Of a stretch of 44,963 bases of DNA, positions 534 through 17,398 are shown in pieces. The stretch is from contig NZ_CATNVB010000020.1 in assembly GCF_951230165.1 (NCBI RefSeq), positions 1 to 44,963 of the forward strand, in the 5' to 3' direction. The stretch's first letter is position 1, and each line of letters opens with the position of its first letter. The position numbers and the translations under genes are program-made. Under the pieces are notes generated by a model that saw nothing but the letters and a program-made list of their open reading frames with translations, had not been told where the DNA came from and ran no database searches. The stretch comes from Lentilactobacillus sp. Marseille-Q4993 (GTDB taxonomy: Bacteria; Bacillota; Bacilli; Lactobacillales; Lactobacillaceae).

Positions 534-3374
534 CTAATCAAAGATTACTAGCTTCTTATTGGCAGTAATGTACTTGTCATTAGTCAATTGGAATCGGTTG
601 ATTGATCTATTAAGGATAACTTTTTTAACTCTAAGGACTGAGTTCCGCTTGTAATGCTTTTGCTTGTCAGTAAGTCCTTTAGTTTGGTAAGAATTGATGC
701 CTGACTTACTAATTACCTTAACTTTCTTGTTTGTAGGGATAGTTGAGTAATAACCAGGTTTAACGTAGTTTTTATTGTAAGTAATGTAACCCTTTTGGGA
801 TGTTACTTTCCCTTTTGCGTTAATAACGGATACGAAGTAACGCTTTACTCCGTTTTTGTTAGTTGTAACTTTCGTAGCTAGGAACATTTGGCGATTAGTA
901 CGTTTAGCCAATGGATAAGATTTCACCGCGTTGCTGGCCTTGAAAACTGGATTGTTGTACAGCTTGATTCCTTTGACAGCATAAACAGCTTTATGAATTG
1001 ATTTTGAAGTTGGTTTAGCTGGTTGAGGAGTGACGGTAGAAGAACTAGATGAGTTAGATTCGGATGAAGAATTGTTTGGAGTGGAACTGATTGAGACGGT
1101 TGAACTAGTTGAAGATGAGCCATTTGTTGATGGAGTATCTGGCTTTTCAACCTTATTTGATACCCTGACTACAGAATTCTTTGGAACGGTGATGGTGATT
1201 GTTCCATCGTGATTGTTGGTATATTCGACCTTGTCATTGTTTGCTACCCACTCGTTTGACTGAGCATCCTTATATTGGCCATTTTCTACCTTTGTTGCCT
1301 TGCCGAATCCTTTAATAGTGAAGGTGGCGTCACTGTCCAGTGTACTACCAAGAAGAATATTATTGTCATCCTGTTTTTCAGCAATTCCCATACTCTTCAA
1401 AGTGTCAGTCTTATAAGTAACCGAAACGTTGTCACCAAATTTCTTGGTATCCGTAAAGTTATTATTTGAGGAAGGAACAGCGTTGAAGAACAGTAAGTTT
1501 TTACCACCAGCACCATCAGCTTGCTTGGTTGCGAGGTCGTAGCCAAGCTTGTTAACGAAGCTGTTAGTTGCTCTGACGTAAGAGATGGCAGATTCACCGT
1601 TGACTTCGTGTGGTTTCCAGGTTCCGTCTGCATTTTCACTATCATATAAATCAAAACCATCGCCACTTCTAAAGTCGTAGTAATTATGAGTGGCTCCACC
1701 CGCTAACGAAGTGATAATTCTAGCACCGGCATCAATTGGTTTATAGTTATTATGTGCCCAAGAACCCTCAATCCCTAATCCGTCTTCCATAACCATTGGC
1801 ATGTTATTGCCCTGAGCGTAGTTGCCGGCATGACCGAACTTGTAGATTCCTTCATAATTGTGAGTGTAGGGATCAAGACCAACTGTATCTAGGTAGGTAC
1901 CACCATTTTTTCTAGCCTCTTCATTTAATGCAACAATTTGAGATCCCTTATCGCCGGAAGCGTTATTTACTCTTGTCCAAACTGAGTATTGAGATTTTTT
2001 GATATGGCTATCTAAATTGTTAGTGTAGTTCCATAGAGTCCAAACTGTGAAGTCTGCTTTGCCATGGTAGTTCTCCTTGGCCTTCTTGCTTGCTTCAGAT
2101 TGTGAGTTATCAGTTGCTGGTTCGTTTGGCTGTTGAGACCCAATAATGGTGTTGGAGTAGTTATGCTCGGCATTGTCAGTAGCGATATGGTTGAATGTTT
2201 TGCCAAGAGCAGCTCCTTCATCAGTTTGCAAGTTCTGATCGTTTTTATCTAGAACAAAATTGTATTGTCCCATTCCTGAGGTTGGACTACTGCGTTTAAA
2301 ATGAATGGGGTTGCCATTTGAATCAACTTCCCACTGATAATTTTGGGCTGCGTATGTGGGAAGCCTTTTTTCTGTTGAAACTTTAGTTGTATCACTACCA
2401 AACCATAACAGTTCCATTTTGATGCCTGCTTGTCTTGCGGCTGATATGACTTTATCTAAGTACGAGAAGTCGAAAGCGTCCTTTTTAGATAGTGAAAGAG
2501 TGGGGACTTCATCCAATGGCTTTTTGGTGGCAGAGCTATTTTTAGTCCCAAAATCTTGACCACCTCCAATGGTTATGGAATTACCCTTATCTGTCCCTAA
2601 TGCTAAGGTAACAGTGCCATGGTTTTGTTGATTTACAAAATCCTTAACGTTAAAGTCATAATAATTTTCGCCCTTGATAGGATCGTATTTAGGGGAAACA
2701 GTGATTTTTGTTTCATCTCCACGTAAACTGCCAGTTTTATCCCAAGTTGAATTTGAGTCCCAGTTATCCTTATCCGCACCGTAAATCGTTAGATTGGTGT
2801 TAGTTTCTGATTTTGCATAGATTCGTAACTTTACACCGTCATAATTGCCAGATTTAAAATCCGAACTAGTTAGGTTTGCTAAGTTATACTTCAACAAGAC
2901 TTGGGATTGAGTATTGCCATCATTTGAAATTTTTAATGATTGTGCTTTTTCGTCAAAGTTTTTGGTTGCGTCACTCCCACCTTTGATATAAGCAATATCA
3001 CTTGGCTTTAGCGATTTATCAGGTTGAACATCAGACCATAAAATTTGTGAGTTAATAACTGTGAAACCATCTCTTTTTGCTTGTTTAAAAGCGTTGGTAA
3101 TGTCATTCATGTTGTAGCCAAAAATGTCACGCAATTTATCAATCCTAATCTGCACTCCATTGTAGAAAAATGGTTGGTAGTCAGAAGAATTGCCTTTTCT
3201 TACCTCTAAAATCTGATTTTTGTCCTGGTTTTTTTGATCTGTTTTTTGGACAATTTTAGAAATTGGTAATGAATCAGCGTGAACTGAGACATCACCGTTG
3301 GATATTCCACCGAGGATTACGACTGGCAAAGCTAAAAGGCTACTGGTTAGTAGACTGCTGTAATTCATTTTCAA
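534..3374 (-). CDS. Secreted clan GH-A glycoside hydrolase-like protein with inserted DNRLRE-type domain and DUF5776-like anchor
   Basis: Probable extracellular polysaccharide hydrolase. The start chosen is TTG at 3374, eight bases after GGAG; the open frame runs 50 codons further upstream, but across the promoter. Visible parts in order: signal peptide ending near SVHADS; first half of a TIM-barrel-like domain (GVQIRIDKLR, TVINSQILWSDVQP); an inserted beta-rich domain at about residues 125-297 resembling DNRLRE/CBM96-type domains (LLKYNLANL, VKLRIYAKS, NLTIYGADKDNW); then the rest of the barrel (LDKVISAARQAG, LLWFGSD). The QQPNEPA motif (Glu about 418) fits a clan GH-A acid/base. The Glu of MVMEDG (about 530) is a candidate nucleophile. 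A Ser/Thr-rich linker and a ~145-residue Lys/Tyr-rich DUF5776-like tail follow. It resembles GH35/GH42-type barrels, but the exact family and substrate are unknown. It is transcribed separately from kdgK. Confidence 0.75.
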   Translation of the reverse strand: MKMNYSSLLTSSLLALPVVILGGISNGDVSVHADSLPISKIVQKTDQKNQDKNQILEVRKGNSSDYQPFFYNGVQIRIDKLRDIFGYNMNDITNAFKQAKRDGFTVINSQILWSDVQPDKSLKPSDIAYIKGGSDATKNFDEKAQSLKISNDGNTQSQVLLKYNLANLTSSDFKSGNYDGVKLRIYAKSETNTNLTIYGADKDNWDSNSTWDKTGSLRGDETKITVSPKYDPIKGENYYDFNVKDFVNQQNHGTVTLALGTDKGNSITIGGGQDFGTKNSSATKKPLDEVPTLSLSKKDAFDFSYLDKVISAARQAGIKMELLWFGSDTTKVSTEKRLPTYAAQNYQWEVDSNGNPIHFKRSSPTSGMGQYNFVLDKNDQNLQTDEGAALGKTFNHIATDNAEHNYSNTIIGSQQPNEPATDNSQSEASKKAKENYHGKADFTVWTLWNYTNNLDSHIKKSQYSVWTRVNNASGDKGSQIVALNEEARKNGGTYLDTVGLDPYTHNYEGIYKFGHAGNYAQGNNMPMVMEDGLGIEGSWAHNNYKPIDAGARIITSLAGGATHNYYDFRSGDGFDLYDSENADGTWKPHEVNGESAISYVRATNSFVNKLGYDLATKQADGAGGKNLLFFNAVPSSNNNFTDTKKFGDNVSVTYKTDTLKSMGIAEKQDDNNILLGSTLDSDATFTIKGFGKATKVENGQYKDAQSNEWVANNDKVEYTNNHDGTITITVPKNSVVRVSNKVEKPDTPSTNGSSSTSSTVSISSTPNNSSSESNSSSSSTVTPQPAKPTSKSIHKAVYAVKGIKLYNNPVFKASNAVKSYPLAKRTNRQMFLATKVTTNKNGVKRYFVSVINAKGKVTSQKGYITYNKNYVKPGYYSTIPTNKKVKVISKSGINSYQTKGLTDKQKHYKRNSVLRVKKVILNRSINRFQLTNDKYITANKKLVIFD

Positions 3375-3401: not shown

Positions 3402-3421
3402 TTGATATATTAGTATTTCAA
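3402..3421. promoter_or_regulatory. Putative uronate-regulon operator 1
   Basis: TTGATATATTAGTATTTCAA is an AT-rich imperfect inverted repeat with TTG/CAA arms, just downstream of the -10 of the hydrolase promoter. Its core ATATTAGTAT (3407-3416) matches ATATTAATAT in the kdgK and kdgA promoters (4616-4625 and 4693-4702). A shared GntR- or LacI-type uronate repressor is inferred; no such regulator gene lies in the window. Confidence 0.5.
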
Positions 3422-3426: not shown

Positions 3427-3455
3427 AGGATACATCTTTTTGAAAGCGCTGTCAA
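3427..3455 (-). promoter_or_regulatory. Promoter of the GH-A hydrolase gene
   Basis: On the minus strand a perfect -35 TTGACA (3450-3455) is followed after 17 bases by TATCCT (3427-3432). A cre box overlaps the -35 and a candidate operator lies just downstream, which fits repression by glucose and induction by a uronate. Confidence 0.6.
3441..3454. promoter_or_regulatory. cre box (CcpA site) upstream of the GH-A hydrolase gene
   Basis: TGAAAGCGCTGTCA matches the cre consensus TGNAANCGNTNNCA at every fixed position. It overlaps the -35 hexamer of the minus-strand promoter, a position where CcpA normally represses. Confidence 0.75.
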
Positions 3456-3490: not shown

Positions 3491-3530
3491 AAAAAAAGAA
3501 TGTGTTCTCATTTTGAGTACACATTCTTTG
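3491..3530 (-). terminator. Terminator of kdgK
   Basis: The inverted repeat AAAGAATGTG...CACATTCTTT forms a 16-bp stem with one mismatch. On the minus strand it is followed by seven T residues. It separates kdgK from the hydrolase gene, so the latter depends on its own promoter. Confidence 0.8.
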
Positions 3531-3546
3531 AAATGTCTATATTAAA

Positions 3547-4563
3547 CTAACGATTCATTGCTGAACCACCAGCGATAATACTACTGATTTCGGATTCACT
3601 AGCTAAGTTCCAGTCGCCACTGATGGTTAATTTATAGACACTAGCAGCAATTGCAAAATTAATTTGGTCTTGAGGTGCAAAATTGTTCATAATACCGTGC
3701 ATTAATCCAGCACCGAATGCATCACCACCAGCGACACCTTCATACACATGCATATCATAACTGCCGCCTTGGAAGAATTGGCCATTGGTATAAAGGATTG
3801 CAGTCCAGGTACTTTTCTCAACAGATAGGATATTACGAAGCACAGATCCAACTGATTCGATATTTGGATATTGATTGACTAGTTCTTCAATTGCGGTTTT
3901 AAACGAGTCCATTTGATTGATTCCGTTAGTCATATCACCATCAAAAGCTTTGATCCCAAAAGATTGTTCAAAGTCTTCATCATGTGCTAGGACGACGGAG
4001 ACGTATGGAAGAAATTTCTTTGAAAATGTTTGAGCTTCAGCCTCAGACCAAAGTTTTCCCCTATAATTAGCGTCAAAAATAACTTTGATACCATTTTCAT
4101 TGCAGTACTTTGCGGCTTCTAGAGTTGCCTGTTGGAGCTCCTTAGAAAGGGCAGTGGTGATTCCTGACACATAAAAATAGTCTGAACCAGCTAATAGTTT
4201 AGGCCAGTTGTATTCTGACGCGCTTGATTCTGCAAATGAACTGAATTTTCGATCGTAAACCACATCGGTACCACGGACACTAGCGCCTTTTTCAAAAAAG
4301 TAGATTCCTAATCTATCTCCACCACGAATAATTTTATTAGTATCAACGGATAATCCTCGGAGCTTTCTAAGTGCGGAATCACCAAGGGTGTTGTTAGGTA
4401 GTTTTGTAATGTAAGCAGCCTCATCGCCCATTATTGATAACGATACAGCTACGTTTGATTCAGCACCACCAAATGATGCTTCAAAAACATCAGACTGATT
4501 TATTCTTTTTGCTGATTCTGGCTTGAATCTTAACATTAATTCTCCAAACGAAGTTAATTTCAT
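3547..4563 (-). CDS. kdgK: 2-keto-3-deoxygluconate kinase, PfkB family
   Basis: Cytoplasmic sugar kinase that phosphorylates 2-keto-3-deoxygluconate (KDG) to KDPG with ATP, the step before KdgA in uronate degradation. The 338-residue length is normal for PfkB kinases. The N-terminal signature is GELMLRF then GGAESNVAVSLSIMG (substrate loop). The C-terminal PfkB motif VAGGDAFGAGLMHG carries the catalytic Asp and anion hole. The ATG is preceded by AGGAG. It is divergent from kdgA, with which it shares a regulatory region of about 175 bp, and has its own terminator. The context makes KDG a better substrate guess than fructose or ribose. The call rests on family motifs plus neighbours. Confidence 0.88.
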   Translation of the reverse strand: MKLTSFGELMLRFKPESAKRINQSDVFEASFGGAESNVAVSLSIMGDEAAYITKLPNNTLGDSALRKLRGLSVDTNKIIRGGDRLGIYFFEKGASVRGTDVVYDRKFSSFAESSASEYNWPKLLAGSDYFYVSGITTALSKELQQATLEAAKYCNENGIKVIFDANYRGKLWSEAEAQTFSKKFLPYVSVVLAHDEDFEQSFGIKAFDGDMTNGINQMDSFKTAIEELVNQYPNIESVGSVLRNILSVEKSTWTAILYTNGQFFQGGSYDMHVYEGVAGGDAFGAGLMHGIMNNFAPQDQINFAIAASVYKLTISGDWNLASESEISSIIAGGSAMNR

Positions 4564-4593
4564 GGTTTCATTTCTCCTGTTTATATGTTATTA

Positions 4594-4607
4594 TGATTGC
4601 GCTTACA
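4594..4607. promoter_or_regulatory. cre-like box in the kdgK leader
   Basis: Read on the minus strand the site is TGTAAGCGCAATCA, matching 13 of 14 positions of the cre consensus (T replaced by A at position 10). It lies just downstream of the kdgK -10, so CcpA roadblock or repression is plausible. Confidence 0.5.
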
Positions 4608-4610
4608 AAT

Positions 4611-4638
4611 ATTGTATATTAATATATCAATTTGTCAA
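4611..4638 (-). promoter_or_regulatory. kdgK promoter with overlapping operator 2
   Basis: Minus-strand -35 TTGACA (4633-4638), 16-bp spacer, -10 TACAAT (4611-4616). The AT-rich element TTGTATATTAATATATCAA (4612-4630) covers the spacer and -10. Its core ATATTAATAT recurs in the kdgA promoter and, with one change, beside the hydrolase promoter. Confidence 0.6.
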
Positions 4639-4677
4639 ACGCTGAGTGTATCGGAAATAACAAATTAAAAAAAGCAT

Positions 4678-4705
4678 TTGACTTTAACTAATATATTAAT
4701 ATACT
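4678..4705 (+). promoter_or_regulatory. kdgA promoter with overlapping operator 3
   Basis: -35 TTGACT (4678-4683), 16-bp spacer, -10 TATACT (4700-4705). The shared core ATATTAATAT (4693-4702) lies in the spacer and -10, so a bound regulator would block RNA polymerase. The promoter points towards kdgA and away from kdgK. Confidence 0.6.
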
Positions 4706-4738
4706 TAAAGACAAATAACTATAGTGAAGGTGAATTTT

Positions 4739-5371
4739 TTGAAACGTGTAGAGATTTTAGATAATATCAAGAAAACTGGTGTGGTTGCCGTTGTTCGTGG
4801 TGACTCAAAGGAACAAGCCATTAAGACGGTTGATGCAATCGTTGCTGGTGGGGTTAAGGGAATTGAATTAACTTTTACTGTTCCTAATGCTGATCAAGCA
4901 ATTAGTGAATTAAATGAAAAGTATGCTGGTACTGATGTAATGGTTGGTGCAGGAACTGTGTTGGATCCCGTTTCAGCAAGAATTGCAATTATTGCTGGAG
5001 CTAAGTTTATTGTTAGTCCATCATTCAATGAGGAAGTTGCTAAGATTTCAAATCTTTACCAAATTCCATATATCCCTGGAACATTTACGAATACCGAAAT
5101 CCAATGGGCACTCGAAGCTGGTTCAGATATTGTTAAGTTGTTCCCAGGAAGTATTGCCCAACCAGGTGCTATCAAAGAGATTCACGGACCATTCCCATAT
5201 GTTAGTGTCATGCCTTCAGGTGGTGTTAATGCTGATAATATTAGTGAATGGAAAGCAGCTGGTGCACTGATTGTTGGTGTCGGTGGCTCTCTTAGTGCTC
5301 CGGCAGCTGAAGGTAATTTTGCAGCTGTAACTGAAAACGCTAAGAAATTATCCGCAGAATGGAATAAATAA
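4739..5371 (+). CDS. kdgA: KDPG aldolase
   Basis: Cleaves 2-keto-3-deoxy-6-phosphogluconate into pyruvate and glyceraldehyde-3-phosphate, the last step of the uronate branch. The preferred start is TTG at 4739, five bases after AAGGTGA, giving 210 residues (MKRVEILDNIKKTGVV). A GTG fifteen bases upstream would lack that spacing. Class I aldolase features are visible: VVAVVRG near the N-terminus, ELTFTVP, GAGTVLD, SPSFN, and the Schiff-base Lys in DIVKLFPGS. PSGGVN is the phosphate-binding region. The length is typical. It is the first gene of a kdgA-uxuB-uxaC series, with a hairpin between it and the next gene that may attenuate rather than end transcription. Confidence 0.92.
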   Translation: MKRVEILDNIKKTGVVAVVRGDSKEQAIKTVDAIVAGGVKGIELTFTVPNADQAISELNEKYAGTDVMVGAGTVLDPVSARIAIIAGAKFIVSPSFNEEVAKISNLYQIPYIPGTFTNTEIQWALEAGSDIVKLFPGSIAQPGAIKEIHGPFPYVSVMPSGGVNADNISEWKAAGALIVGVGGSLSAPAAEGNFAAVTENAKKLSAEWNK

Positions 5372-5373
5372 TG

Positions 5374-5397: not shown

Positions 5398-5409
5398 AAC
5401 TAATTGGGT

Positions 5410-5457: not shown

Positions 5458-7083
5458 ATGGTAAAAATTACTGACAACTATTTAACGAATAAAACGGCCT
5501 TTGAAAATGCAGGGATCAAGGTCCCCAATTATGACATCTCTAACAAAACAGGGGATATTAAGTGGGTCCACTTTGGGGGTGGAAACCTGTTTAGAGCGTA
5601 TCACGCGGCAATTGCTAATACGCTGATTGAGAATGGTGATTTAGATGCTGGGGTTGTTGTAGCTGATACCCATAATGAAGCGGTGATCAACAAAGTTTAT
5701 GCTCCTTTTGAAAATCGAATTCTACGTGTAATTACCAAAGATAATGGTGACTTTGACAATGAGTTACTAACTCCAGTAGCGGATGCCTTTTTCTTAGCTC
5801 CTGACCACAAACAAAATTGGGCTAAGATGCAGAAATTGTTTGAATCCCCTGCACTACAACTAGTATCATTTACGATTACCGAGAAGGGTTATGGATTATG
5901 GCAATCAAATGGTGAGTTTACTGATGAAGTAGCTGCCGACATTAAAAACGGGCCTTCAGCGCCAAAAAATAATATGACTGGCCTAGTTGCACTGATGTAT
6001 GCCCGCTTTAAGGCGGGTAAACTACCGCTTGCATTATTAACTACCGATAATTTCTCTCAAAACGGAGATAAGTTGAAGAAAAGCGTCAATACAGTGGCAA
6101 AGCAATGGGCTAATAATGGCAATGTTGAGCCAGAATTTGTTGATTATCTTGATGATTCAACTAAGGTCAGCTTTCCGCTATCAATGATTGACCGGATCAC
6201 GCCAAATCCTTCAAAAGAAGTGGCAGACAAATTGAAGGAATCCGGTTTTCAAGATAGTGAAATTATTAGCGTTGGCAGAACAGATTTTGCTGCTTTTGCT
6301 AACACAGAGGAGTCACACTACCTAGTTATTGAAGATGCCTTTCCTAATGGGCGACCTGCTTTTGAAAAGGCGGGAGTCATTATGACTGATAGAGACACTG
6401 TTAATGATGCAGATGAGATGAAGGTTACGACTTGCTTGAATCCGTTGCATACAGCTCTTGCAATTCATGGTGATCTACTTGGATTTGAATCGATTGCTGA
6501 AGAGGTTTCTGACCCAGATATGCTTAATTTAATTAAACAAATTGGTTACGTTGAAGGGTTGCCAGTTGTTAAAGATCCTAAGGTTATCAGTCCAAAGAAG
6601 TTTATTGATCAATTAGTTACTAAGAGGTTGCCAAATCCTTATATTCCGGATAAACCTCAAAGAATCGCCGCGGATACTTCGCAAAAAATTCCGGTACGGT
6701 ATGGCGTAACAATTTCGCATTACCTAAACGACGCTGACCGAAAAGTGACTGACTTAACGTTCATTCCATTAGTTCTGGCTACTTGGTGCCGCTACTTAAT
6801 GGCTGTTGACGATAATGGCAAATCATTTACCCCTAGTCCAGATCCGCTATTAGATGAGTTACAGCCAAAAGTTGCTGACATTCATCTTGGAGATAAAGAT
6901 GTTGATGTTCACGGCCATTTGAAGGATATTTTGAGTAATAAAGCAATTTTTGGCCACGACTTATACGAAATTGGATTAGGTTCTAAGGTGGAAGATTTCT
7001 TTGCCAAACAAATTATCGGAGTGGGTGCGGTTCGGAAAACACTCCATGATACGTTAGCTGAATATGCCAAGCCAATAATTTAA
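5458..7083 (+). CDS. uxuB: Fructuronate/tagaturonate reductase (long-chain mannitol dehydrogenase family)
   Basis: NAD(H)-dependent oxidoreductase that reduces the keto-uronate made by UxaC to D-mannonate (or D-altronate). It has 541 residues, longer than the roughly 480-residue E. coli UxuB/UxaB. The nucleotide-binding region is KWVHFGGGNLFRAYH (about residues 34-48). SFTITEKGYG (about 138-147) and KVTTCLNPLHTALAI (about 322-336) are the conserved mannitol dehydrogenase-family segments; the latter carries the Lys, Asn and His expected in the active site. The ATG at 5458 is preceded by AGGAGGA. It sits 14 bp before uxaC. I cannot tell fructuronate from tagaturonate preference by sequence, so the uxuB symbol is provisional. 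The missing dehydratase would decide it. Confidence 0.8.
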   Translation: MVKITDNYLTNKTAFENAGIKVPNYDISNKTGDIKWVHFGGGNLFRAYHAAIANTLIENGDLDAGVVVADTHNEAVINKVYAPFENRILRVITKDNGDFDNELLTPVADAFFLAPDHKQNWAKMQKLFESPALQLVSFTITEKGYGLWQSNGEFTDEVAADIKNGPSAPKNNMTGLVALMYARFKAGKLPLALLTTDNFSQNGDKLKKSVNTVAKQWANNGNVEPEFVDYLDDSTKVSFPLSMIDRITPNPSKEVADKLKESGFQDSEIISVGRTDFAAFANTEESHYLVIEDAFPNGRPAFEKAGVIMTDRDTVNDADEMKVTTCLNPLHTALAIHGDLLGFESIAEEVSDPDMLNLIKQIGYVEGLPVVKDPKVISPKKFIDQLVTKRLPNPYIPDKPQRIAADTSQKIPVRYGVTISHYLNDADRKVTDLTFIPLVLATWCRYLMAVDDNGKSFTPSPDPLLDELQPKVADIHLGDKDVDVHGHLKDILSNKAIFGHDLYEIGLGSKVEDFFAKQIIGVGAVRKTLHDTLAEYAKPII

Positions 7084-7097: not shown

Positions 7098-8516
7098 ATG
7101 TCATTGCTTAACGATGATTTTCTATTAACAACTGAAACTGCTCGTAAATTGTTTCATAATCATGCTGAAAAAATGCCAATTATTGACTTTCATTGTCATT
7201 TGGAACCCAAAGAAATTTATGAGAACAAGAATTATGACAACATTACCCAAATCTGGATTAATCAGGGCAATTCTGGGGATCATTACAAATGGCGCTTGAT
7301 GAGAGCAAATGGGGTTCCAGAAGAGCTTATTACTGGTGATGGTAATGACTATGATAAGTTTATTGCTTGGGCAAAAACAATTGAAAAGGCGCTTGGCAAC
7401 CCACTTTATGAATGGACCCATTTGGAATTAAAACGATTTTTTGGTATTGATGAAGTGTTTAATGAAAAGTCAGCACCAGCTATCTGGGAAAAAGCTAACA
7501 AAATGCTTGCCACGACTGACTTCAAGCCAAGAAACCTTATTAAACGTTCAAACGTTGAGGTGGTTTGTACGACAGATGATCCTGCCTCTGATCTTAAGTA
7601 CCATAAGCTTCTTAAAGAAGATGAAGCCCAAAATGGGTTTAAAGTGTTACCAGCGATGCGCCCCGATGCGATTTTTAACCTAAATGCGGATGACTTTGAC
7701 GAGTATTTAAAGTCATTGAGTTCAGTTTCGGGCATTAGCGTTAATTCATTTAAAACGATGATGGAGGCCCTTGACCAACGGTTTGATTTCTTTGAAACTT
7801 TAGGTGGTAGTCTGTCGGATCATGGCCTAAACTTCTTTAGGTTTAACAAAGCAAGTGAAGATCAAATTGATGAGATCATTGATAAGGCAAGAAGAAACGA
7901 ACAATTATCGGCCGAAGAAGTTGATAAATACCAAACAATGGTCGTTGAAGAGTTGATGCGTCTTAATAAGAAACATAATTGGACAATGCAATTTCATATG
8001 AATGTTATTCGGGATGCGAATAAGCCAATGCTGAAGTCGTTTGGCTCCAACGGTGGTTTCGATTCGATGGGAACCCAGGCTGATATTGCTGATCAATTTA
8101 TGAAACTCTTGATTGATATGCAAAGCGAGAACCAACTACCAAAGATGATTTTGTATTCACTTAATCCTAATGACTGGATGCAGCTTGCAACTGGAATGGG
8201 TGACTTCCAACAGGATGGAGTTCAAAAGATTCAACTAGGTGCCGCTTGGTGGTTTAACGATACCTTCTCAGGGATGACAAAGCAGTTGACCACAATGGCT
8301 GAGCAGAGTTTACTATCGAACTTTGTTGGAATGTTAACTGATTCACGGAGCTTCTTATCATATCCACGACATGAATACTTTAGACGAGTTTTATGTAATT
8401 TTGTTGGTACCTTAGCAGAAAGAGGCCAAGTACCAGATGATGAAGAAATACTGGGTAAGATGGTGGCGGATATATCTTATAACAATGCTCATGACTACTT
8501 TGGTTTTTATAAATAA
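7098..8516 (+). CDS. uxaC: Glucuronate isomerase
   Basis: Uronate isomerase: converts D-glucuronate to D-fructuronate, and D-galacturonate to D-tagaturonate, the entry step of the pathway. It has 472 residues, the usual length. The amidohydrolase-like metal motif [14 protein letters not shown] is at about residues 27-40. Further conserved segments are [25 protein letters not shown] and [19 protein letters not shown] near the C-terminus. The ATG follows AAAGGAGAT. It is the last gene of the plus-strand catabolic series and shares a bidirectional terminator with the convergent ABC transporter operon. Confidence 0.94.
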
Positions 8517-8576: not shown

Positions 8577-9656
8577 TTAATCAATACGGGTACCAGTATT
8601 TTTATCAAATAAAAGTATGCAATCTTGATCAAATTTCATGTATGCGGTAGCTGCATTACTATTCCAACTGGGAGTCAAGGCCTTTAGGTTAACTTCTGGG
8701 CTGACTTTAATTGTTAATTGCTTAAACTTCCCGTAGTCTGTCACTGCATCAATTTTTACTGGAATGGATTCTGTTTCCTGTTTCTCGGAAATTGAGATAT
8801 TTTCAGGGCGAATACCTAGTAATAATCTTTTATCTTTTTGAACTATATTTTTATAGTTTGAAATTAGTTTCATACCGTCTAGGGTAATCAAGTTTGAATC
8901 ATTATACTCAACTTGAATTACATTGATTTGAGGACTACCAACGAACTTAGCAACGAATAAATTTGACGGATTGTGGTACACGTTTTCAGGAGTATCAATC
9001 ATTTGAACTATTCCATTGTTGATGACGGCAATCCTGTCTCCAAGGGCCATTGCCTCTTGCTGGTCGTGGGTGACATAAAGAATAGTTTGACCATTCTGGT
9101 TATGGAGCTGTAACAACTGATCTCGGGCTTTTTCTCGGAGCTGAACGTCAATATTCGAAAGGGGCTCATCTAAGAGAAAAATATTGGTTTTTTTGGCCAT
9201 TCCTCTTCCAAGGGCAACTCGTTGTTTTTGTCCTCCAGATAACTCGGCAGGAAAACGGTCTTTGTACTTAGATAAGTTTAGAGATTCCATTATTTTTTCA
9301 AGCCGCTGTTTGCGTTCTTCTTTTGGTACCCTATGGACCTTTAGAGCGTATTCCAAATTTTGATACACAGTCATGTTTGGATACAATGCGTAATCTTGAA
9401 AAACCATTGCAATACTGCGCTGCTTATTATTCAAATTCCTAGAATCTTTATTGTTGATTATGATTTTACCGCCAGTTGGGTCCTCCAATCCTGCAATCAT
9501 CCTTAGTGTTGTTGATTTTCCACATCCAGATGGTCCGAGAAAGACAAGGAGTTCCCCTGGGTAAATTTTGAGATTCATATTCTTAATCACGTTGGTTGAT
9601 TTATCGTAGTCTTTTGAAACATCTTCAAGTACGATCGAATATCCATTGCTTTCCAT
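8577..9656 (-). CDS. msmK: ABC transporter ATP-binding protein, MsmK/MalK/UgpC type
   Basis: Cytoplasmic ATPase that powers a carbohydrate importer. Walker A GPSGCGKST (residues 41-49), Q-loop VFQDYALYP, signature LSGGQKQR (139-146), Walker B IFLLDEPLS and the switch VTHDQQEA are all intact. The C-terminal TOBE/MOI-type regulatory domain (about 240-359) is typical of CUT1 systems. It is the last gene of a four-gene operon, 11 bp after the permease gene. MsmK-type ATPases can serve several importers, but here each component has its own partner. Its place beside the uronate genes suggests import of uronate-containing oligosaccharides; the substrate is inferred. Confidence 0.88.
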   Translation of the reverse strand: MESNGYSIVLEDVSKDYDKSTNVIKNMNLKIYPGELLVFLGPSGCGKSTTLRMIAGLEDPTGGKIIINNKDSRNLNNKQRSIAMVFQDYALYPNMTVYQNLEYALKVHRVPKEERKQRLEKIMESLNLSKYKDRFPAELSGGQKQRVALGRGMAKKTNIFLLDEPLSNIDVQLREKARDQLLQLHNQNGQTILYVTHDQQEAMALGDRIAVINNGIVQMIDTPENVYHNPSNLFVAKFVGSPQINVIQVEYNDSNLITLDGMKLISNYKNIVQKDKRLLLGIRPENISISEKQETESIPVKIDAVTDYGKFKQLTIKVSPEVNLKALTPSWNSNAATAYMKFDQDCILLFDKNTGTRID

Positions 9657-9667
9657 ATATTAATACC

Positions 9668-10489
9668 TCACTTTAATCCACTACTACTAATGCTATTTAG
9701 GATATATTTTTGGAAAATAACATAAATCAATAACGGTGGAATAATCATAATAGTTGCCAATGCCATTGCTAATGGAAAGTTTGTTCCACCTTCACTGGAA
9801 ATATAGTTTTGAAGTGCTAATGGCAGGGTAAAGCTGCCTTTATCTTTTAGTATTAGGGTTGGCCAAACGTATTCATTCCAACTGTTAATAAAGAATATAG
9901 CTCCAATACTGATAATGTTTGGTTTTAAAATAGGGATGATAATATTCATTAGAATTTTTCGTTCTGGGATGTCATCAATTCGAGCACTTTCAACCAAACT
10001 AGTCGGTACTTTCTCCATAGCCTTTAAAAAAAGCATTATTCCAGCTGCATCACACATTTGTGGTAGTGCGACTCCAAGCATATTATTCAGTAAGTTCATT
10101 TTTGAGATTACTAAGTAGTTTGGAATCATTATGGTTGTGAACGGCACAAAGATAGTTGCAATAAAGATAAAATAGACGATTTTTTTACCATGAAATTTAA
10201 AGTTATGAAATGCGTATGCGGCTAGCAATCCAGTTGAAATTTTCCCTAAAGTCACTAGTGTAGCCATCCCAAACGTGTTTAAAGTTACTCTAATCAAGTT
10301 GATCTGATGATTTAGCGTGATGTAATTAGCTAGAGTGGGGTGACTTGGAATTAAGCTTAGAATTGAATTGTAAGAGTCATGCAAAGTTTTGAAAGAGTTA
10401 GAGATCATGAACAAGATTGGTAAGATTATTACTAATACGATTAACAAAAGCGGGATATGCCATACTAGGCTTTTTCGATTAGTCTGCAT
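9668..10489 (-). CDS. ABC sugar transporter permease, MalG/MsmG type
   Basis: Inner permease of a CUT1-family carbohydrate importer. The start chosen is ATG at 10489, preceded seven bases earlier by AAGGAGGGAG; an in-frame ATG seven codons upstream lacks this site. About six hydrophobic helices are visible, starting with HIPLLLIVLVIILPILFMI. The EAA-type loop that docks on the ATPase is SARIDDIPERKILMNIIIPI. The gene start overlaps the end of the upstream permease gene by 11 bases, indicating translational coupling. Confidence 0.85.
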   Translation of the reverse strand: MQTNRKSLVWHIPLLLIVLVIILPILFMISNSFKTLHDSYNSILSLIPSHPTLANYITLNHQINLIRVTLNTFGMATLVTLGKISTGLLAAYAFHNFKFHGKKIVYFIFIATIFVPFTTIMIPNYLVISKMNLLNNMLGVALPQMCDAAGIMLFLKAMEKVPTSLVESARIDDIPERKILMNIIIPILKPNIISIGAIFFINSWNEYVWPTLILKDKGSFTLPLALQNYISSEGGTNFPLAMALATIMIIPPLLIYVIFQKYILNSISSSGLK

Positions 10490-11420
10490 GCTTTCTCCCT
10501 CCTTCAACAAATTTTATTTCAAGTGCAAGTAGTATCAAGAAAATTATGAAAGTGACTGTAGCTAATGCTGATGCATTACCAGTTTTGTATAAAACAAATC
10601 CATTTAGGTAAGTGTGGTAGAGAATGTTTGAAGAACCATAATTTGGCCCACCTTGAGTAATAACGTTTAGAGGTGTGAAAACATATTGAAGTCCTTCGAC
10701 AATTGTTAAAATCAAAACATAGACTGAAACACTCTTATTCATTGGCAGGACAATGTCCCATATTACTCTCCATTTTGGGATACCATCAATTTTTGCTGCT
10801 TCAATTATATTTTTGGGGATGGAACCTAAACCAGTTAAGAGGAGAATAAAGTTATATCCGAAAACTTTCCAGTTGGTAATTAGACAAATAACGATAATCG
10901 CTAGTGAACCAGAATTAGTCCATTGAGGCAGTTTCATTCCGTAGTCCCTTAAAATCAATGCAACAGGTCCGGAAACTGGATTTAAAATCCAAGAGAATAG
11001 CATTGCACCAACTACAAGGGAGAACAAACTAGGAATGAAAAATAATATCTTGTAAGGCCCTTTAGTTTTACCAATAAAGAAGTTAACAATTATTGAGATT
11101 AAATAAGGGATGACAAAGTTTAGAATTACTAAAATACCAATATAAATAAGGGTATTAAACATCACCTGTCGGTTGGTTGGATCTGTAAATACGTTAATGT
11201 AGTTATTAAACCCCACAAACTCTTTGGTTGGTGATATTAGATTCCAGTTAAAGAAGCTTAAATAAAGAGTATAGAGCACTGGAAATCCTATGAATATTGA
11301 AATAAGAATTCCTGATGGTAATAGGTAAAAAAATGGTTTGATATTCATTTTCTTGCCCCTTTTGACGGGACCAGAGCGAGAGCTTATTTTTTCCTTGGCT
11401 TGGATGTTATTGCTTAACAT
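10479..11420 (-). CDS. ABC sugar transporter permease, MalF/MsmF type
   Basis: First permease subunit of the CUT1 importer, 313 residues. The N-terminus is cytoplasmic and basic, followed by FFYLLPSGILISIFIGFPV and about five further membrane segments. The EAA-loop equivalent is AAKIDGIPKWRVIWDIVLP. The ATG at 11420 follows GGAG with an eight-base spacing and overlaps the binding-protein gene by 14 bases. A later in-frame ATG (residue 25, KKMNIKPFF) also has a weaker GGGG upstream. Confidence 0.85.
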   Translation of the reverse strand: MLSNNIQAKEKISSRSGPVKRGKKMNIKPFFYLLPSGILISIFIGFPVLYTLYLSFFNWNLISPTKEFVGFNNYINVFTDPTNRQVMFNTLIYIGILVILNFVIPYLISIIVNFFIGKTKGPYKILFFIPSLFSLVVGAMLFSWILNPVSGPVALILRDYGMKLPQWTNSGSLAIIVICLITNWKVFGYNFILLLTGLGSIPKNIIEAAKIDGIPKWRVIWDIVLPMNKSVSVYVLILTIVEGLQYVFTPLNVITQGGPNYGSSNILYHTYLNGFVLYKTGNASALATVTFIIFLILLALEIKFVEGGRKHAD

Positions 11421-12690
11421 TTATCTTCTCCTGAGCTGATTTTAGGGTTTGATTAACGTTCTTTCCTGATAGAATTTGGTCTCTAGCATCAATCATACTT
11501 TGTTCTGCATCAAGTCCATTTTTAGGGAACGAAGTCCATGGAACTGCATTTCCAAGCTCATCGACAGCAGGCTTTATCATCGGATTCTTATCTAAGTATG
11601 TCTTAAAGATAGTAGAATTGAGAGCAGTTTTTGTTGGTGGAAGGTATCCAGTTCCTTTATCCCAGGTCATGAGGGAACTGTTCTTATACATAAATTTTTC
11701 AAACTTCCAAGCAGCTTTTTGCTGTGGAGTTGATTGCGCAGTAATTGTCAGCATCGAGCCTCCAACTGGAACTGTAAGTTTTTTGCCTTTGAAGGTGGGA
11801 GCAACGATTGCTGATGCATCAAAATTAGCACTTTGCTTAATGTGAGATGCTTGGGCAACAGTAGTGAATGCCATTGCAACTTTTCCATTGATGAAAGCAT
11901 CCATACCTTGATCCCAAGGAGCGTGGAGAGCGGTTTTTTCTTTAACAACCATATCTTGGTAGAGCTGGTATGCTTGTTGTCCTGCCTTTGAGTTGAAAGC
12001 CGCTTTACCGTCATTCGATTTAATTTGTGCTCCATTGCTTAACATCATAGCTTGTTGAGCCCAGGTATCAGCTGGTTCCTGAATGTAAACACCATAGTTA
12101 CCACTCTTTGATTTGATTTGCTTTGAAGCTTTTTCAACACCTTGCCAAGTAGACAGTTCTGAAGGATCGATTCCATATTTTTTCAAAATAGTTTTGTTGA
12201 TGTAAAGGATGGGAGTACTTAAAGAATAAGGCAACCCAACAAGTTTTCCATTAGCGTTTTTTGCGAAGCTTAAAGTTTTAGGAGAAAAATTTTTGGTGAT
12301 TGAATTTGTATTTTTATCAAACTTTTGGGCGGCATCGTTTGGATTTAAATATTTAAAGTTATCAGAGAAGTAGTTTGTGTAAGCCCAACCCACTTGAACA
12401 ACATCTGGTACCTTACCCGATGCTTGAGCGGACTGGAGATTTTGCATCAGGCCTTGATACATATTTGGATTAAATTTTGCGGTCACTTTAATGTTTTTAT
12501 GAGTTTGATTAAACTCCTTTACCAGCTTATTAACAGAAGCCCCTCCCAATGTTTGAGCGTTGACGTGCCAGTATGTTATATGCGTTACTTTGTCGTTTGC
12601 CTGGGATTTTGAGCATCCTGCAAACAAGGCTGCCATTCCAATGATTGCGGTTATTCCAGCTAACCGTTTCAAAGTGTGCTTAGTATTCAT
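11407..12690 (-). CDS. Sugar ABC transporter substrate-binding lipoprotein
   Basis: Extracellular solute-binding protein family 1 (MsmE/MalE-like), 427 residues. The signal peptide ends in the lipobox LFAGC (Cys about 26), so it is lipid-anchored outside the membrane. The mature start ITYWHVNAQTLGG is typical of family 1 proteins. GLPYSLSTPILYINK and AWKFEKFMYKNSSLMTWDKG are further conserved segments. It is the first gene of the operon. It delivers an oligosaccharide to the permeases; the nearby uronate enzymes suggest an aldobiuronic acid or similar fragment, but that is inferred. No clear cre box or -10/-35 pair was found in the 140 bp before it. Confidence 0.88.
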   Translation of the reverse strand: MNTKHTLKRLAGITAIIGMAALFAGCSKSQANDKVTHITYWHVNAQTLGGASVNKLVKEFNQTHKNIKVTAKFNPNMYQGLMQNLQSAQASGKVPDVVQVGWAYTNYFSDNFKYLNPNDAAQKFDKNTNSITKNFSPKTLSFAKNANGKLVGLPYSLSTPILYINKTILKKYGIDPSELSTWQGVEKASKQIKSKSGNYGVYIQEPADTWAQQAMMLSNGAQIKSNDGKAAFNSKAGQQAYQLYQDMVVKEKTALHAPWDQGMDAFINGKVAMAFTTVAQASHIKQSANFDASAIVAPTFKGKKLTVPVGGSMLTITAQSTPQQKAAWKFEKFMYKNSSLMTWDKGTGYLPPTKTALNSTIFKTYLDKNPMIKPAVDELGNAVPWTSFPKNGLDAEQSMIDARDQILSGKNVNQTLKSAQEKINVKQ

Positions 12691-12783: not shown

Positions 12784-12818
12784 TTTAGTACTATAAATTA
12801 CATTTAGTTCTATAATTA
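12784..12818 (+). repeat. Tandem direct repeat upstream of the small secreted gene
   Basis: TTTAGTACTATAAATTA (12784-12800) and TTTAGTTCTATAATTA (12803-12818) are near-identical tandem copies. The second contains TATAAT, a perfect -10 hexamer at 12811-12816. It may be a promoter with a tandem activator or repressor site; no good -35 was seen. Confidence 0.45.
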
Positions 12819-12847
12819 ACGTATCTACATATTTGGAGGGGATTACA

Positions 12848-13273
12848 TTGAAACATTTCAAGATTAAGTTGGGGCTAACTATTGCGACTGCTAGCTTCTT
12901 GACGTTTGTTCCGGTATCAAACACTGTTCATGCTTCGGCCTGGCATCATGGATGTCCGAAGTTTTTAAAGGGTTCATGGCGGAGTAGTAAATTCAAAGGT
13001 GGCATTGGGAATAAAAAGATTCGGGCCCATCTGTTTTTTAGCAACGGGGGGCTAAGTATGGTTTTAGATGGTGGTAATGGTCTTGGTGTAACTAACGGAA
13101 TTGGGTATAAGCATCTTTCAGGTCACAATTATCGATTTAGAACGCACTATAAATATGGAAACGATTACGGATACTACACTATAAAAAATACTAGCCATAA
13201 ACGAATCTACCAACGGTTTAATGGTGGCTGGCTTCGTTATCACAAAATATCCAACAAACTAGCTCAATACTAG
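12848..13273 (+). CDS. Small secreted protein, function unknown
   Basis: Exported protein of 141 residues from TTG at 12848, which follows GGAGGGG with good spacing; the open frame begins 15 bases earlier at another TTG that lacks a site. The signal peptide is hydrophobic (LGLTIATASFLTFVPV) and ends near VHAS. The mature part is rich in Gly, His, Lys and Tyr, with one Cys (HHGCPKF). A short beta-rich fold is suggested by alternating FRTHYKYG and YGYYTIKN segments. I do not recognise a family. It is divergent from the transporter operon and has its own terminator, so a surface role linked to the locus is possible but not shown. Confidence 0.7.
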   Translation: MKHFKIKLGLTIATASFLTFVPVSNTVHASAWHHGCPKFLKGSWRSSKFKGGIGNKKIRAHLFFSNGGLSMVLDGGNGLGVTNGIGYKHLSGHNYRFRTHYKYGNDYGYYTIKNTSHKRIYQRFNGGWLRYHKISNKLAQY

Positions 13274-13282
13274 TTGAAATAA

Positions 13283-13334
13283 AAAAGCACCGAACTACCA
13301 ATGTAATTCCTACAATTGGTAGTTCGGCGTTTTT
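13283..13334 (+). terminator. Terminator of the small secreted gene
   Basis: A perfect 13-bp stem CCGAACTACCAAT/ATTGGTAGTTCGG (13290-13302 with 13315-13327), flanked by A-rich and T-rich runs, 10 bp after the stop codon. Confidence 0.85.
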
Positions 13335-13621: not shown

Positions 13622-16600
13622 CTAGTACTGCAATATGAGTTTTTTATTACCTGTGACATACTTGCCGTTGGTCAACACAAATCTAGTTGTTAAGTGATAT
13701 TTAACGATTTTCTTAACTTTAAGATGTGCTCCTTTTTTGTAGTGCTTGTACTTACCTGTAAGACTAACTTTCTTGTATGAGTTAGCTCCAGATTTAGATA
13801 TAACCGTAATTACTTTAGACTTATTTAGCTTTGAGTAATAAACAGGACGAATATACTTAGCATTGGCTGTGATATATCCAGTCTTTTTATAGCTTCTGCT
13901 ACGATTATTTAAGTCGATTACTTTATATCTAAGAGTTCCTCTGTCAGTTTTTGCAGTTGACAGGATTTTAAACATTGGTCGGTTAATGCGCTTTTGCTTC
14001 TTGAATGTAGAAATAATGTTCTTCTTATTGAAATCGACTTTTTTGTACAAGTTTATCTTTTTAATAGCATAAACTACAGATCCCTTAAGCTTACTTGTTT
14101 CTGCGTTTGACCCTGGGGTGCCTGTTTCGATGGAATTCGAGGATCCAGTAATATTTGATGAAGAATTAACTTGATTGCTGGAAGAACTACTAGTTGATGA
14201 TGTTTCCGATCCAGTTGAGGTGCTTGAACTGCTTGAGCTATTTGAACTGTTTGAGTTACTTGAACTACCCGAATTTTCACTTGGGTTAGGGTTTGGTTGG
14301 GTTCCCTCTTTGACAATTTGTAACTTTCCGTTGGTAGCAGTTACAGGGATTGAAAGATCAATATCTGTTTGCGATTTTCCGTCGAAAGTTTGGACCTTTT
14401 TGTCATTGAATAGAACATCAAACTTGCCGTCAAAGCCTTTGCCATTGTGAATTTTCAGGTCAACGTTATGCTCAGATTTGGAAACGTTTTCAAAATCGAA
14501 TATTGCTGAGTTGCCATCTTTTGATATATCAGCATGGGTATATTTGTCACCATCAAATGTGTATGATAGTTTGTCTGAAACGAGATTCAATTTGGTTTTT
14601 AGACCATCTTCAGGAGTGATTGAAAGGTTGTTACCACTCTCTGATACGTCTGCACCATAGCCTGTTAACCCAAATATTGGGTCATTTACAACGTCAGCTG
14701 ATAATACCTGCAAGGCACCGAATACTGATAAGTCAGCTTCACCTGATAATGAACGCCAACCATTGTGAAGTTTTCCAGTACCAACTCCATATAGTGCTTG
14801 GGTTGGACTTCCAAGTTCTGCTTGATAAGTCCAAGAAACTGCACCAATATTCTCAGCAGAACTGTCGATTTGACCACTATTGATATGGGTCAAATTAGCT
14901 AACTTTGCTCCATAATTTGCCCGTTCAGCAAGGCCTAATTGCTCGTCTGATAATCCATTATCCTCGTTTACTAGCCAGTCGTTCATTGCTGTATCAGCCA
15001 ATGATGCGGTGTATTGGAATTGCCACCAGTTTTCACCGTTGATAGTGACAGGATCATCGTATAAATACCATACGGGCTGAACGCCCCTACAAGCTCTTGT
15101 TTTCATATCAACCATTTGCATCATCTGCTTATTGCTATATTGCTTTCCAAGCATGTAAACGGCTTCTTCACCTGTGTTGTCGTATGGATACTCTGATGTG
15201 TATGGATATGGATCTTTAGAAAAGTTGGTATATTTCTTTTGGAAGTAACTAGCTAAATTTTCTGCTTCGTTTTTATACCCGTTTTCTTTCAAAGCATTAA
15301 GAATTTCAGTACCAGTTGACTCACCTTCAAGACCATCCATTGAGTAGGCTATGTCACCTGAATACAGAGTTTTCATAATGTTGTAAGCTTTCTCAAGATA
15401 CCAAACAGCAGGGTGTTGATAGCTCATTAGTTTTGGATAATTATGCTCGATTTTATACATTTCAAAGAATGTATTGTAAACGTGAGGATAAGCAAATCCA
15501 CGCCACGAATAATTATCTGTATCAGTGGTACCAGTTGATTTCTTGTCTAACCAGTCTGGAACGCGATAGTCATTATGGTGGTTTTTCATAAGCCCGTTCC
15601 AAATGCCAGTATTGACATACGATTCTACACCTCTTATTTGTTCTTTGTTAGGGTTCTCTGAATTTTGGGCTGCTAGGAATAAACCGTGGGTCAACCCCCA
15701 ATCATCACCCCAGCCAAGGCTATTCCAGTCGGGACCATTGAAGTTGCCTCGTTTTGCCTTTGTGTTAAAGTCCCAATCATCAAAGATTTTGTCATAAAAT
15801 TTACTTGAGTCGTTCCATTGAGTTTTGAGCATAAAGTTAGCATGAGATTCCAATGCATTCTCAGGGTTGTCGATAACGTAATATTGAAGGGTAGTCTGCT
15901 TCGTGGTTTGTTGGCCGGGTAGTTTGTAATTTACGATAATATTATTTCTACCCAGACTATGGAATTTAATGTTGTAAATATGGTATTGTTCGCCATTCTT
16001 TACTACTGTTTTGTCAAAGATTGCAGTCCCGGTTTGTTCGCTACCAATATTTGAACTGGTGTCGTTATTTGAATTTGTTCTTTGAGAGACGTAATCATTT
16101 TTTTGGTTTTGGTATTTAAAACTAATGTCGCTAGCGGGAACCTTAGTATGCAGGTACATCTTTCCAGTTGCAACTCCGTCTTTATTCTTAGGAATCACCA
16201 TTCCTGGTACTGAAACGGCGTCCATAATGTTGTTTTTATATAAAACGGATTTCAGTTGACTTTCATACTTCGTAATAGTCATATCGCCTTTTTTGGTCTG
16301 GCTATCGCCTTTTGCAGAATTTTTGACACCAGCACTGTCAAAGTTAAATGAATATGTTTTTGTTTGACCAGGATCTAATTGAAGGGCGGTGTTAGGCAGA
16401 TATCCTCTGTTACCGGATTGAATTGCTGCCGAGTTGATGTAGTAGACGTTGAGACCGTTATCCCATTTGCCACCATCAACATCCCAAGCTGCCTCATCCC
16501 CAGTGTGTGAACCCCAACCCCAGCGATCTTGGTATTCAAATTGAGTGTCTGTATTGGAATCCGGAGTCATCACTAAGAAATTTCCAATTCCGCTGGGACG

Positions 16601-17398
16601 GTTAGCATATACGTATGAAGAATTTTGGCCAACAAAACTATGAAATAACACACTTTTTTCATATGCTTTTTCAGTTTTATCTGCACCACTGTAGCCCCAA
16701 TATTCTTTGAACGGAAGGGGAATACCAACATCGCCGACTGTTAATTTTTGGTCAGTGGTGTTTTTGATACTAATATCCCATTTAAGATTATCTTTGTCAT
16801 CGATATAATAAGTTTCTGTAACCGCCACGTTTTTAAAACCGTTTTGGGTCGTCCCAGGTGTATATGAAACAACGACTTTGTTGTCACTTATAGTTATTTT
16901 CCTAGTAGCATCAGAGTAGTTTGTGTATTCCTTTTGCCAAGCTGTACCATCATTAGAACTTTGGTCGCCTGAATGAGTTCTTAACATTAAGTCACCAACC
17001 CATTTATGAGCTGAGTTTGCTTGATCTGGATTGTCTTTTGCATTCAGTACGTAGTTTGTGTCATGGGAGTCATTTTGAAGATATAAACCTTGAATAGTAC
17101 CATCCTTATCAATTTGTACTTTAAATGTGTTATTTGCAATTTCGTAGCCACCGTCAGAAGTTGCTGTTGGCTTGGCCACACCACTGCTTTGTAATTGATC
17201 AACGGCAACTTTGTTACCTAAATTCAAATTATGTAAGTCAACAGCTGACTTACTCGTGGTTGTCTTTGTAGCATTTTGAGAAGCAATACTGTCAATTGTA
17301 GGGGTTAATTGACTAGTAGAGTCAGCGTTAACATTTGAAGCTAACAAGATAGTGGACAGTATCGCAGTTCCTGTCCCTATTAATAATGATTTTCTCAT
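13622..17398 (-). CDS. Large secreted DUF5695-like protein with DUF5776-like anchor, paralogue A
   Basis: 1258-residue surface protein, probably acting on an extracellular glycan. Signal peptide at residues 1-25 (ends NVNADS). Residues about 80-500 are beta-rich, with FHSFVGQNSSYVYANRPSG (252-270). Residues about 510-920 are helix- and Trp-rich, like an (alpha/alpha)6 toroid: GWGDDWGLTHGLFLA (562-576), MKNHHNDYRVPDWL (604-617), EYPYDNTGEEAVYMLG (736-751), VTINGENWWQFQYTASLADT (784-803), and GAVSWTYQAELGS. Conserved Asp, Glu, His and Trp could form an active site. A Ser/Thr linker (about 1035-1110) and a DUF5776-like tail follow. The layout resembles DUF5695 proteins, whose activity I do not know. 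The paralogue at 41005-44820 shares all these blocks. Neighbours suggest a uronic-acid glycan; hydrolase versus lyase is open. Confidence 0.7.
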   Translation of the reverse strand: MRKSLLIGTGTAILSTILLASNVNADSTSQLTPTIDSIASQNATKTTTSKSAVDLHNLNLGNKVAVDQLQSSGVAKPTATSDGGYEIANNTFKVQIDKDGTIQGLYLQNDSHDTNYVLNAKDNPDQANSAHKWVGDLMLRTHSGDQSSNDGTAWQKEYTNYSDATRKITISDNKVVVSYTPGTTQNGFKNVAVTETYYIDDKDNLKWDISIKNTTDQKLTVGDVGIPLPFKEYWGYSGADKTEKAYEKSVLFHSFVGQNSSYVYANRPSGIGNFLVMTPDSNTDTQFEYQDRWGWGSHTGDEAAWDVDGGKWDNGLNVYYINSAAIQSGNRGYLPNTALQLDPGQTKTYSFNFDSAGVKNSAKGDSQTKKGDMTITKYESQLKSVLYKNNIMDAVSVPGMVIPKNKDGVATGKMYLHTKVPASDISFKYQNQKNDYVSQRTNSNNDTSSNIGSEQTGTAIFDKTVVKNGEQYHIYNIKFHSLGRNNIIVNYKLPGQQTTKQTTLQYYVIDNPENALESHANFMLKTQWNDSSKFYDKIFDDWDFNTKAKRGNFNGPDWNSLGWGDDWGLTHGLFLAAQNSENPNKEQIRGVESYVNTGIWNGLMKNHHNDYRVPDWLDKKSTGTTDTDNYSWRGFAYPHVYNTFFEMYKIEHNYPKLMSYQHPAVWYLEKAYNIMKTLYSGDIAYSMDGLEGESTGTEILNALKENGYKNEAENLASYFQKKYTNFSKDPYPYTSEYPYDNTGEEAVYMLGKQYSNKQMMQMVDMKTRACRGVQPVWYLYDDPVTINGENWWQFQYTASLADTAMNDWLVNEDNGLSDEQLGLAERANYGAKLANLTHINSGQIDSSAENIGAVSWTYQAELGSPTQALYGVGTGKLHNGWRSLSGEADLSVFGALQVLSADVVNDPIFGLTGYGADVSESGNNLSITPEDGLKTKLNLVSDKLSYTFDGDKYTHADISKDGNSAIFDFENVSKSEHNVDLKIHNGKGFDGKFDVLFNDKKVQTFDGKSQTDIDLSIPVTATNGKLQIVKEGTQPNPNPSENSGSSSNSNSSNSSSSSSTSTGSETSSTSSSSSNQVNSSSNITGSSNSIETGTPGSNAETSKLKGSVVYAIKKINLYKKVDFNKKNIISTFKKQKRINRPMFKILSTAKTDRGTLRYKVIDLNNRSRSYKKTGYITANAKYIRPVYYSKLNKSKVITVISKSGANSYKKVSLTGKYKHYKKGAHLKVKKIVKYHLTTRFVLTNGKYVTGNKKLILQY

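Follow-up and report, generated by a model that had tools for sequence, protein, structure and literature searches.

Three probable neighbouring units in one stretch

Lentilactobacillus sp. Marseille-Q4993 carries genes for uronic acid breakdown beside an importer and two large secreted proteins of unnamed families, and this arrangement raises the question whether the genes form one locus for the use of a uronic-acid-bearing glycan. The genes lie on contig NZ_CATNVB010000020.1, whose full 44,963 nucleotides we call the window (C20 among the 75 contigs of the genome, which totals 2.28 Mb). We assign a probability of about 0.7, proposed functions included, to the explanation that the stretch consists of three neighbouring units: a glucuronate unit with a secreted DUF4978 protein (unit A, 534-8516), a Ugp-type CUT1 cassette (unit B, 8577-12690), and a secreted DUF5695 protein (unit C, 13622-17398, with a copy at 41005). 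The gene content, the sharing of an operator, the relationship of DUF5695 to PL27, and the linkage to GH127 among relatives are observed. The gene list, checked with Pfam and NCBIfam, is as follows.

534..3524, minus strand: secreted GH-A-like protein with CBM96 insert, DUF4978, Ser-rich linker and DUF5776; likely start 3368
3547..4563, minus strand: PfkB kinase of the 2-keto-3-deoxygluconate kinase type (kdgK; Pfam/NCBIfam)
4724..5371, plus strand: 2-keto-3-deoxy-6-phosphogluconate (KDPG) aldolase (kdgA; Pfam/NCBIfam)
5458..7083, plus strand: oxidoreductase of the mannitol dehydrogenase family, below NCBIfam cut-offs, fructuronate reductase by context
7098..8516, plus strand: glucuronate isomerase UxaC (Pfam/NCBIfam)
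8577..12690, minus strand: Ugp-type CUT1 cassette of ATPase, two permeases and binding protein, the last at 11407-12690 (NCBIfam)
13622..17398, minus strand: secreted DUF5695 protein with PL27-like fold and C-terminal DUF5776
41005..44820, plus strand: second long DUF5695/DUF5776 gene, 52% identical to the first

The sequence-only reading had listed uxaC, a uronate reductase, kdgK, kdgA, a CUT1 importer and two secreted proteins, and all of them were recovered by the Pfam and NCBIfam searches; the interpretation it gave them is supported in part. Its statement that no classical uronate-releasing enzyme (GH67, GH88, GH105, GH115 or a known lyase family) is present holds for the 31 of 37 non-overlapping open reading frames (ORFs) of the window covered by the Pfam scan. 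Both secreted proteins had been called wall-anchored; each ends in a DUF5776 domain, but an LPxTG motif was not found in the last 120 residues.

A common operator probably ties the DUF4978 gene to glucuronate catabolism

The upstream region of the DUF4978 gene and the divergent promoter region of kdgK and kdgA have in common an imperfect palindrome, ATAYTAATATATCAA (one strand). Allowing up to two mismatches, the window contains five matches versus 0.63 expected, a count reached in one of 100 shuffles. Four of the five fall in the regions just named, a pair of these four being the overlapping strands of a single palindrome; the remaining match lies inside the DUF5695 coding sequence. The operators and the cre-like sites, the latter identified with what we take to be the CcpA consensus, are the following.

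3402..3421, unstranded: operator copy that precedes the DUF4978 gene with a start at 3368 but lies within the ORF with a start at 3524
4612..4630, unstranded: operator copy in the kdgK/kdgA divergent promoter region
4687..4705, unstranded: second operator copy in the kdgK/kdgA region, two mismatches
3441..3454, plus strand: cre-like site with no mismatches, upstream of the DUF4978 gene only if its start is 3368
17481..17494, unstranded: cre-like site upstream of the DUF5695 gene
40900..40913: cre-like site of the second DUF5695/DUF5776 gene

Four perfect operator matches occur in the whole genome: at the DUF4978 gene, at kdgK/kdgA, and on contigs C54 and C44. The C54 site has a GntR-family gene on one side and, on the other, a gene of 153 residues that is followed by UxuA and GH115 genes; a second site with two mismatches lies directly before UxuA. 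The C44 site is about 90 bp upstream of a transporter gene that reaches the contig end; its product is 97% identical to an MFS_2 transporter encoded beside a GH115 gene on contig C32 and 75-79% identical to transporters encoded beside GH115 in genomes G009 and G011. A weight matrix built from six sites of the own genome was applied to 14 chosen loci, one of them the window. Beyond those six it detected ten sites scoring 17 bits or more, in genomes G001, G009, G011 and G021, and all ten precede uronate catabolism genes, or transporter genes adjoining these or GH115. No site of at least 17 bits was found in 21 other loci (397 kb), where the maximum was 14.7 bits. Neither the pattern nor the matrix gave a strong operator upstream of either the DUF5695 gene or the CUT1 cassette. 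The GntR-family protein of C54 is 45% identical to a G008 counterpart with GntR and FCD domains, and this GntR/FCD-type protein encoded beside UxuA probably binds the common operator.

Across 397 genomes of the family, the best matches include relatives that cover the catalytic part of the DUF4978 protein in four genomes alone: the own one, G008, G009 and G011. The other listed matches reach the C-terminal part only. The gene neighbourhoods recur. On one side the DUF4978 gene is accompanied by GntR-UxuA-esterases in G008, by GntR-UxuA-kdgA-kdgK in G009, and by GH115-transporter in G011; on the opposite side are LacLM in G008 and G009 and GH78 in G011. GH115 is present in all four genomes with catalytic-part relatives and in 10 of 24 genomes of the genus overall. 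Among 398 genomes drawn from the class, DUF4978 was listed in two, the own genome and G666 (G008, G009 and G011 are not among the matches listed); in G666 a GH4 gene adjoins the relative. DUF4978 was absent in a search of 46 DUF5695-bearing genomes, a search that matched nothing anywhere, and no relatives were confirmed in viral contigs. In genome G001 the four uronate genes recur at 75-91% identity, accompanied by a Sugar_tr transporter and GH78, and the stretch read around them contains no CUT1 cassette. Because the operator is common to the DUF4978 and uronate genes and their neighbours recur, the assignment of this secreted protein of an unclassified family to the uronate genes is supported.

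Glucuronate as the probable substrate of the pathway

The dehydratase of the pathway is absent from the locus, and UxuA is encoded on C54, where it was recognised from its 76% identity to a UxuA that had been scanned with Pfam. The UxaC-UxuB-UxuA-KdgK-KdgA route is thus complete in the genome, with UxuB assigned by context only. The altronate dehydratase family was detected in none of the 24 genomes of the genus and in 5 of 14 controls, and on this the galacturonate route was rejected; the isomerase and reductase therefore most likely serve glucuronate. Like known glucuronate (uxaC-uxuAB-kdgKA) regulons with a GntR/FCD regulator and GH115 or GH67, the system has all catabolic steps, a common operator, GH115 and a transporter. 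It differs in that its genes are spread over at least three contigs and that its secreted member is a CBM96/DUF4978 protein below all GH cut-offs.

Two GH115 genes are present elsewhere in the genome, one on C54 beside UxuA and the operator, without a visible signal peptide in its product, and one on C32. A beta-helix protein with DUF5776 is encoded near the C32 gene and esterase-like genes (L210:12412-14889). A second uxaC/reductase locus (L031, contig C36), with an FGGY kinase, a 2-hydroxyacid dehydrogenase, an epimerase and an MFS_2 transporter, is common among genomes of the genus.

The DUF4978 surface protein

The first ATG of the 534-3524 ORF is at 3524, and a signal-peptide-like stretch begins at Met53 (position 3368), which is probably the gene start. 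The protein then consists of a signal-like start, the CBM96 insert, DUF4978, the Ser-rich linker and DUF5776. Asn-Glu 467-468 and Glu 580 (numbering of P0001; N414-E415 and E527 of A3) are invariant in 4 of 4 relatives and form a candidate catalytic pair, in which, by what we assume to be the clan GH-A pattern, Asn-Glu would supply the acid/base and the second Glu the nucleophile. The protein thus resembles clan GH-A, and GH35-type barrels in particular, by weak local similarity and by these residues; it differs in scoring 32.4 bits with the GH35 NCBIfam model against a cut-off of 500 and in having an unconfirmed barrel. A profile search of the PDB gave marginal GH35-type matches (E-value 0.0085 or worse).

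The sequence-only reading had required a secreted protein either to free the uronate or to make fragments for import. The second role is probable for the CBM96/DUF4978 protein, whereas the first need not fall to it because of the two GH115 genes. Acetylated glucuronoxylan is its most likely substrate, since GH115 and esterase-like genes accompany the DUF4978 gene or GH115; one esterase-like neighbour has a BD-FAE match above the cut-off, and a GDSL match is below it (27.9 versus 32.9 bits). Arabinogalactan is a less likely substrate, kept in view because a work cited in PMC11036162 describes, in its title, one GH115 as specific for decorated arabinogalactans.

A Ugp-type cassette between the two secreted proteins

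For all four CUT1 proteins the best NCBIfam match is a Ugp model, with scores under the cut-offs (362.7/432, 128.6/297, 122.1/335, and, for the binding protein, 104.7/411 bits). Relatives of the binding protein (E-value at most 1e-40) were found in 18 of 301 genomes, the own included, and the orthologues in the other 17 are 66-76% identical. In each of the 16 of these loci that were fetched, the four CUT1 genes stand together, and the next gene encodes some 270-315 residues; in all eight loci scanned it is Metallophos. This phosphoesterase gene is missing in the window. Among solved structures the closest are UgpB proteins. The cassette therefore resembles UgpABCE in its best matches and nearest structure and differs in its scores and in the missing phosphoesterase gene; on these comparisons we would class it with the Ugp-type importers, and its cargo may be phosphate esters. 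Given its conservation with Metallophos elsewhere, together with the UgpB and Ugp matches, we place it outside the uronate unit. The earlier idea that this importer takes up the products of a secreted enzyme is not supported by these matches, nor by the operator, which precedes another transporter.

The DUF5695 protein is related to PL27, and its relatives are linked to GH127

The DUF5695 protein has an N-terminal beta-sandwich and an (alpha/alpha)6 barrel, as in the PL27 enzyme BACCELL_00875 (Foldseek E-value 6e-24). A profile of 81 rows detects PL27 with an E-value of 3.8e-10, the sole PDB match with a meaningful E-value; the single sequence alone does not. These domains are common to the PL27 L-rhamnose-alpha-1,4-D-glucuronate lyases (BACCELL_00875 and BT0263), from which DUF5695 differs by an identity of only 15-18%, an additional C-terminal beta-rich part with DUF5776, and the GH127 linkage. 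HypBA2 (6m5a) is a weak match of the model (rank 33, E-value 6.6e-4, TMq 0.20), and PL27 is far nearer.

GH127 was found in 46 of 80 DUF5695 loci and relatives of CUT1 permeases in 50; no uronate or GH115 reference was the best label of any gene there at 1e-15. Five other Lentilactobacillus genomes have a long DUF5695 gene, with GH127 in three and a uronate gene in none (stretch read). A joint DUF5695 and uronate locus, as first proposed, was rejected on these 80 relatives, which accompany GH127 and not the uronate genes tested. The GH127 genes of the own genome are on contig C37. All 43 members of the neighbouring GH127 cluster, including the C37 gene, retain the Glu, ExC and CC residues; the excerpts of PMC10850190 give the same pattern as the catalytic and zinc residues of a GH146 enzyme of the same clan. 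A large secreted enzyme, a CUT1 importer and GH127 are close together in many DUF5695 loci, as in the HypBA1/HypBA2 (GH127/GH121) system of Bifidobacterium longum outlined in excerpts of PMC7263609; the differences are that the DUF5695 fold is nearer to PL27 than to GH121 and that the own GH127 is on another contig. The second surface enzyme thus probably belongs to a separate arabinose-related system.

The region before the DUF5695 gene contains a perfect palindrome of 18 bp (17439-17456), possibly another operator. A 795-residue protein with no Pfam match (L009:10618-13002) accompanies GH127 and transporter genes in several Lentilactobacillus, and this family seems to account for the weak DUF5695 matches, some 790 residues long, in the genus. 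In the literature searched, which left subscription journals and CAZy outside, there was no mention of DUF4978, PF18951 or PF16349, and DUF5695 occurs in one paper, whose title concerns another subject.

Proposed model and alternatives

In the model, all substrates and catalytic activities, the identity of the regulator and the direction of transport are inferred. Unit A would be part of a glucuronoside regulon dispersed over the genome. The DUF4978 enzyme would cut a glucuronic-acid-bearing plant glycan into fragments outside the cell, the GPH-type (MFS_2) transporter on C44 would import them, and the C54 GH115 would remove (4-O-methyl-)glucuronic acid. UxaC, the reductase, UxuA of C54, KdgK and KdgA would then convert the acid to pyruvate and glyceraldehyde-3-phosphate, and CcpA probably acts at the cre site. 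Unit C would be a surface enzyme with a PL27-like fold, probably catabolite-repressed, that trims an arabinofuranose-bearing plant glycan and feeds the GH127 cluster on C37.

A number of observations weigh against this three-unit explanation. With up to one mismatch the own genome has five operator matches versus two for a reversed control pattern, the fifth within a coding region, and in G009 two of four such matches lie away from uronate genes. The operator is upstream of the DUF4978 gene only if translation starts at Met53, and the loci given to the matrix were selected for their genes. The candidate operators of G008 are weak, at 14.7 and 11.7 bits against a null maximum of 14.7, and no strong operator was found at the GH115/transporter pairs of C32 (best 11.0 bits) and G009 (L211, 10.3 bits) or at the second uxaC locus on C36 (9.8 bits). 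The DUF4978 relatives are broken in G009 (two frames; L163:8596-11471) and G011 (three internal stops; L164), and the gene may be decaying in the genus. The DUF4978 protein passes no GH family cut-off, and an AlphaFold2 model of its single sequence, made without relatives, has a predicted local distance difference test (pLDDT) score of 31.7, which leaves the GH-A fold unconfirmed. For unit C, 34 of the 80 DUF5695 loci have no GH127 in the stretch covered, and none is adjacent in the window.

The position of the CUT1 cassette directly behind uxaC and its scores below the Ugp cut-offs would agree with recruitment for aldouronic or other acidic oligosaccharides, which would make 534-12690 one functional unit; given the conserved gene order with Metallophos, the UgpB structures and the lack of a strong operator before the cassette, we regard this as very improbable. 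We also consider it unlikely that there is a single gum arabic or arabinogalactan locus, in which DUF5695 would be a PL27 lyase taking rhamnose off Rha-alpha-1,4-GlcA (rhamnose-glucuronic acid) caps and DUF4978 would then free (unsaturated) glucuronate or short side chains, both feeding the uronate genes. The PL27 relationship argues for it, as do the beta-elimination by which PL27 enzymes cleave such caps, as stated in excerpts of PMC8377490, the GH78 alpha-rhamnosidase genes that G011 has close to its DUF4978 gene and G001 close to its uronate set, and the cre-like sites before both secreted genes. It is opposed by the labels of the 80 DUF5695 loci, the five other Lentilactobacillus, and the DUF5695 gene lacking the operator. 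Moreover, GH88 and GH105 are not among the 25 families listed, of 99, for 73 sampled DUF5695 neighbours, where single rarer cases are possible. The PL27-like fold, as modelled, leaves open an action of DUF5695 on glucuronate-containing gum side chains.

Within the three-unit explanation, unit C may take the form of a counterpart of the GH121 enzyme HypBA2, with DUF5695 cutting beta-L-arabinofuranosyl oligosaccharides off plant glycoproteins to supply an importer and a cytoplasmic GH127. The GH127 and permease counts, the conserved GH127 residues and the arrangement of the B. longum genes make this quite possible, if short of even odds, given a fold far nearer to PL27 than to 6m5a. More tentatively, with the odds rather against it, DUF5695 may be a large unrecognised surface family, a PL27-related fold re-tooled to cut arabinofuranose-bearing plant glycans outside the cell in partnership with GH127. 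CBM96/DUF4978 may likewise be the first member of a new GH-A family, whose endo-enzymes would act on glucuronoglycans and feed GH115 inside lactic acid bacteria.

Other features of the window

Just past the locus, genes for formate-tetrahydrofolate ligase, formiminotransferase-cyclodeaminase and FolD are consecutive (18783-22047). A DUF711 protein at 31854-33197 is apparently split: a 290-residue ORF corresponding to profile positions 148-412 of 413 is preceded by a 154-residue ORF. A protein with a pro-kumamolisin activation domain is encoded at 33291-35366. No RNA families and no tRNAs were found in the window, and plasmids contain no DNA nearly identical to 3525-13300.

Implications

The analysis newly assigns two unnamed families and describes an operator that sets them apart; the activities are all proposals. 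Neither family had an assigned function, and both assignments are testable: DUF5695 would be a relative of PL27 with a link to GH127, and DUF4978 would supply the secreted protein of a glucuronate regulon. The operator gives a means to seek further members of the regulon, and the findings suggest that a Lentilactobacillus can use glucuronate-bearing plant glycans.
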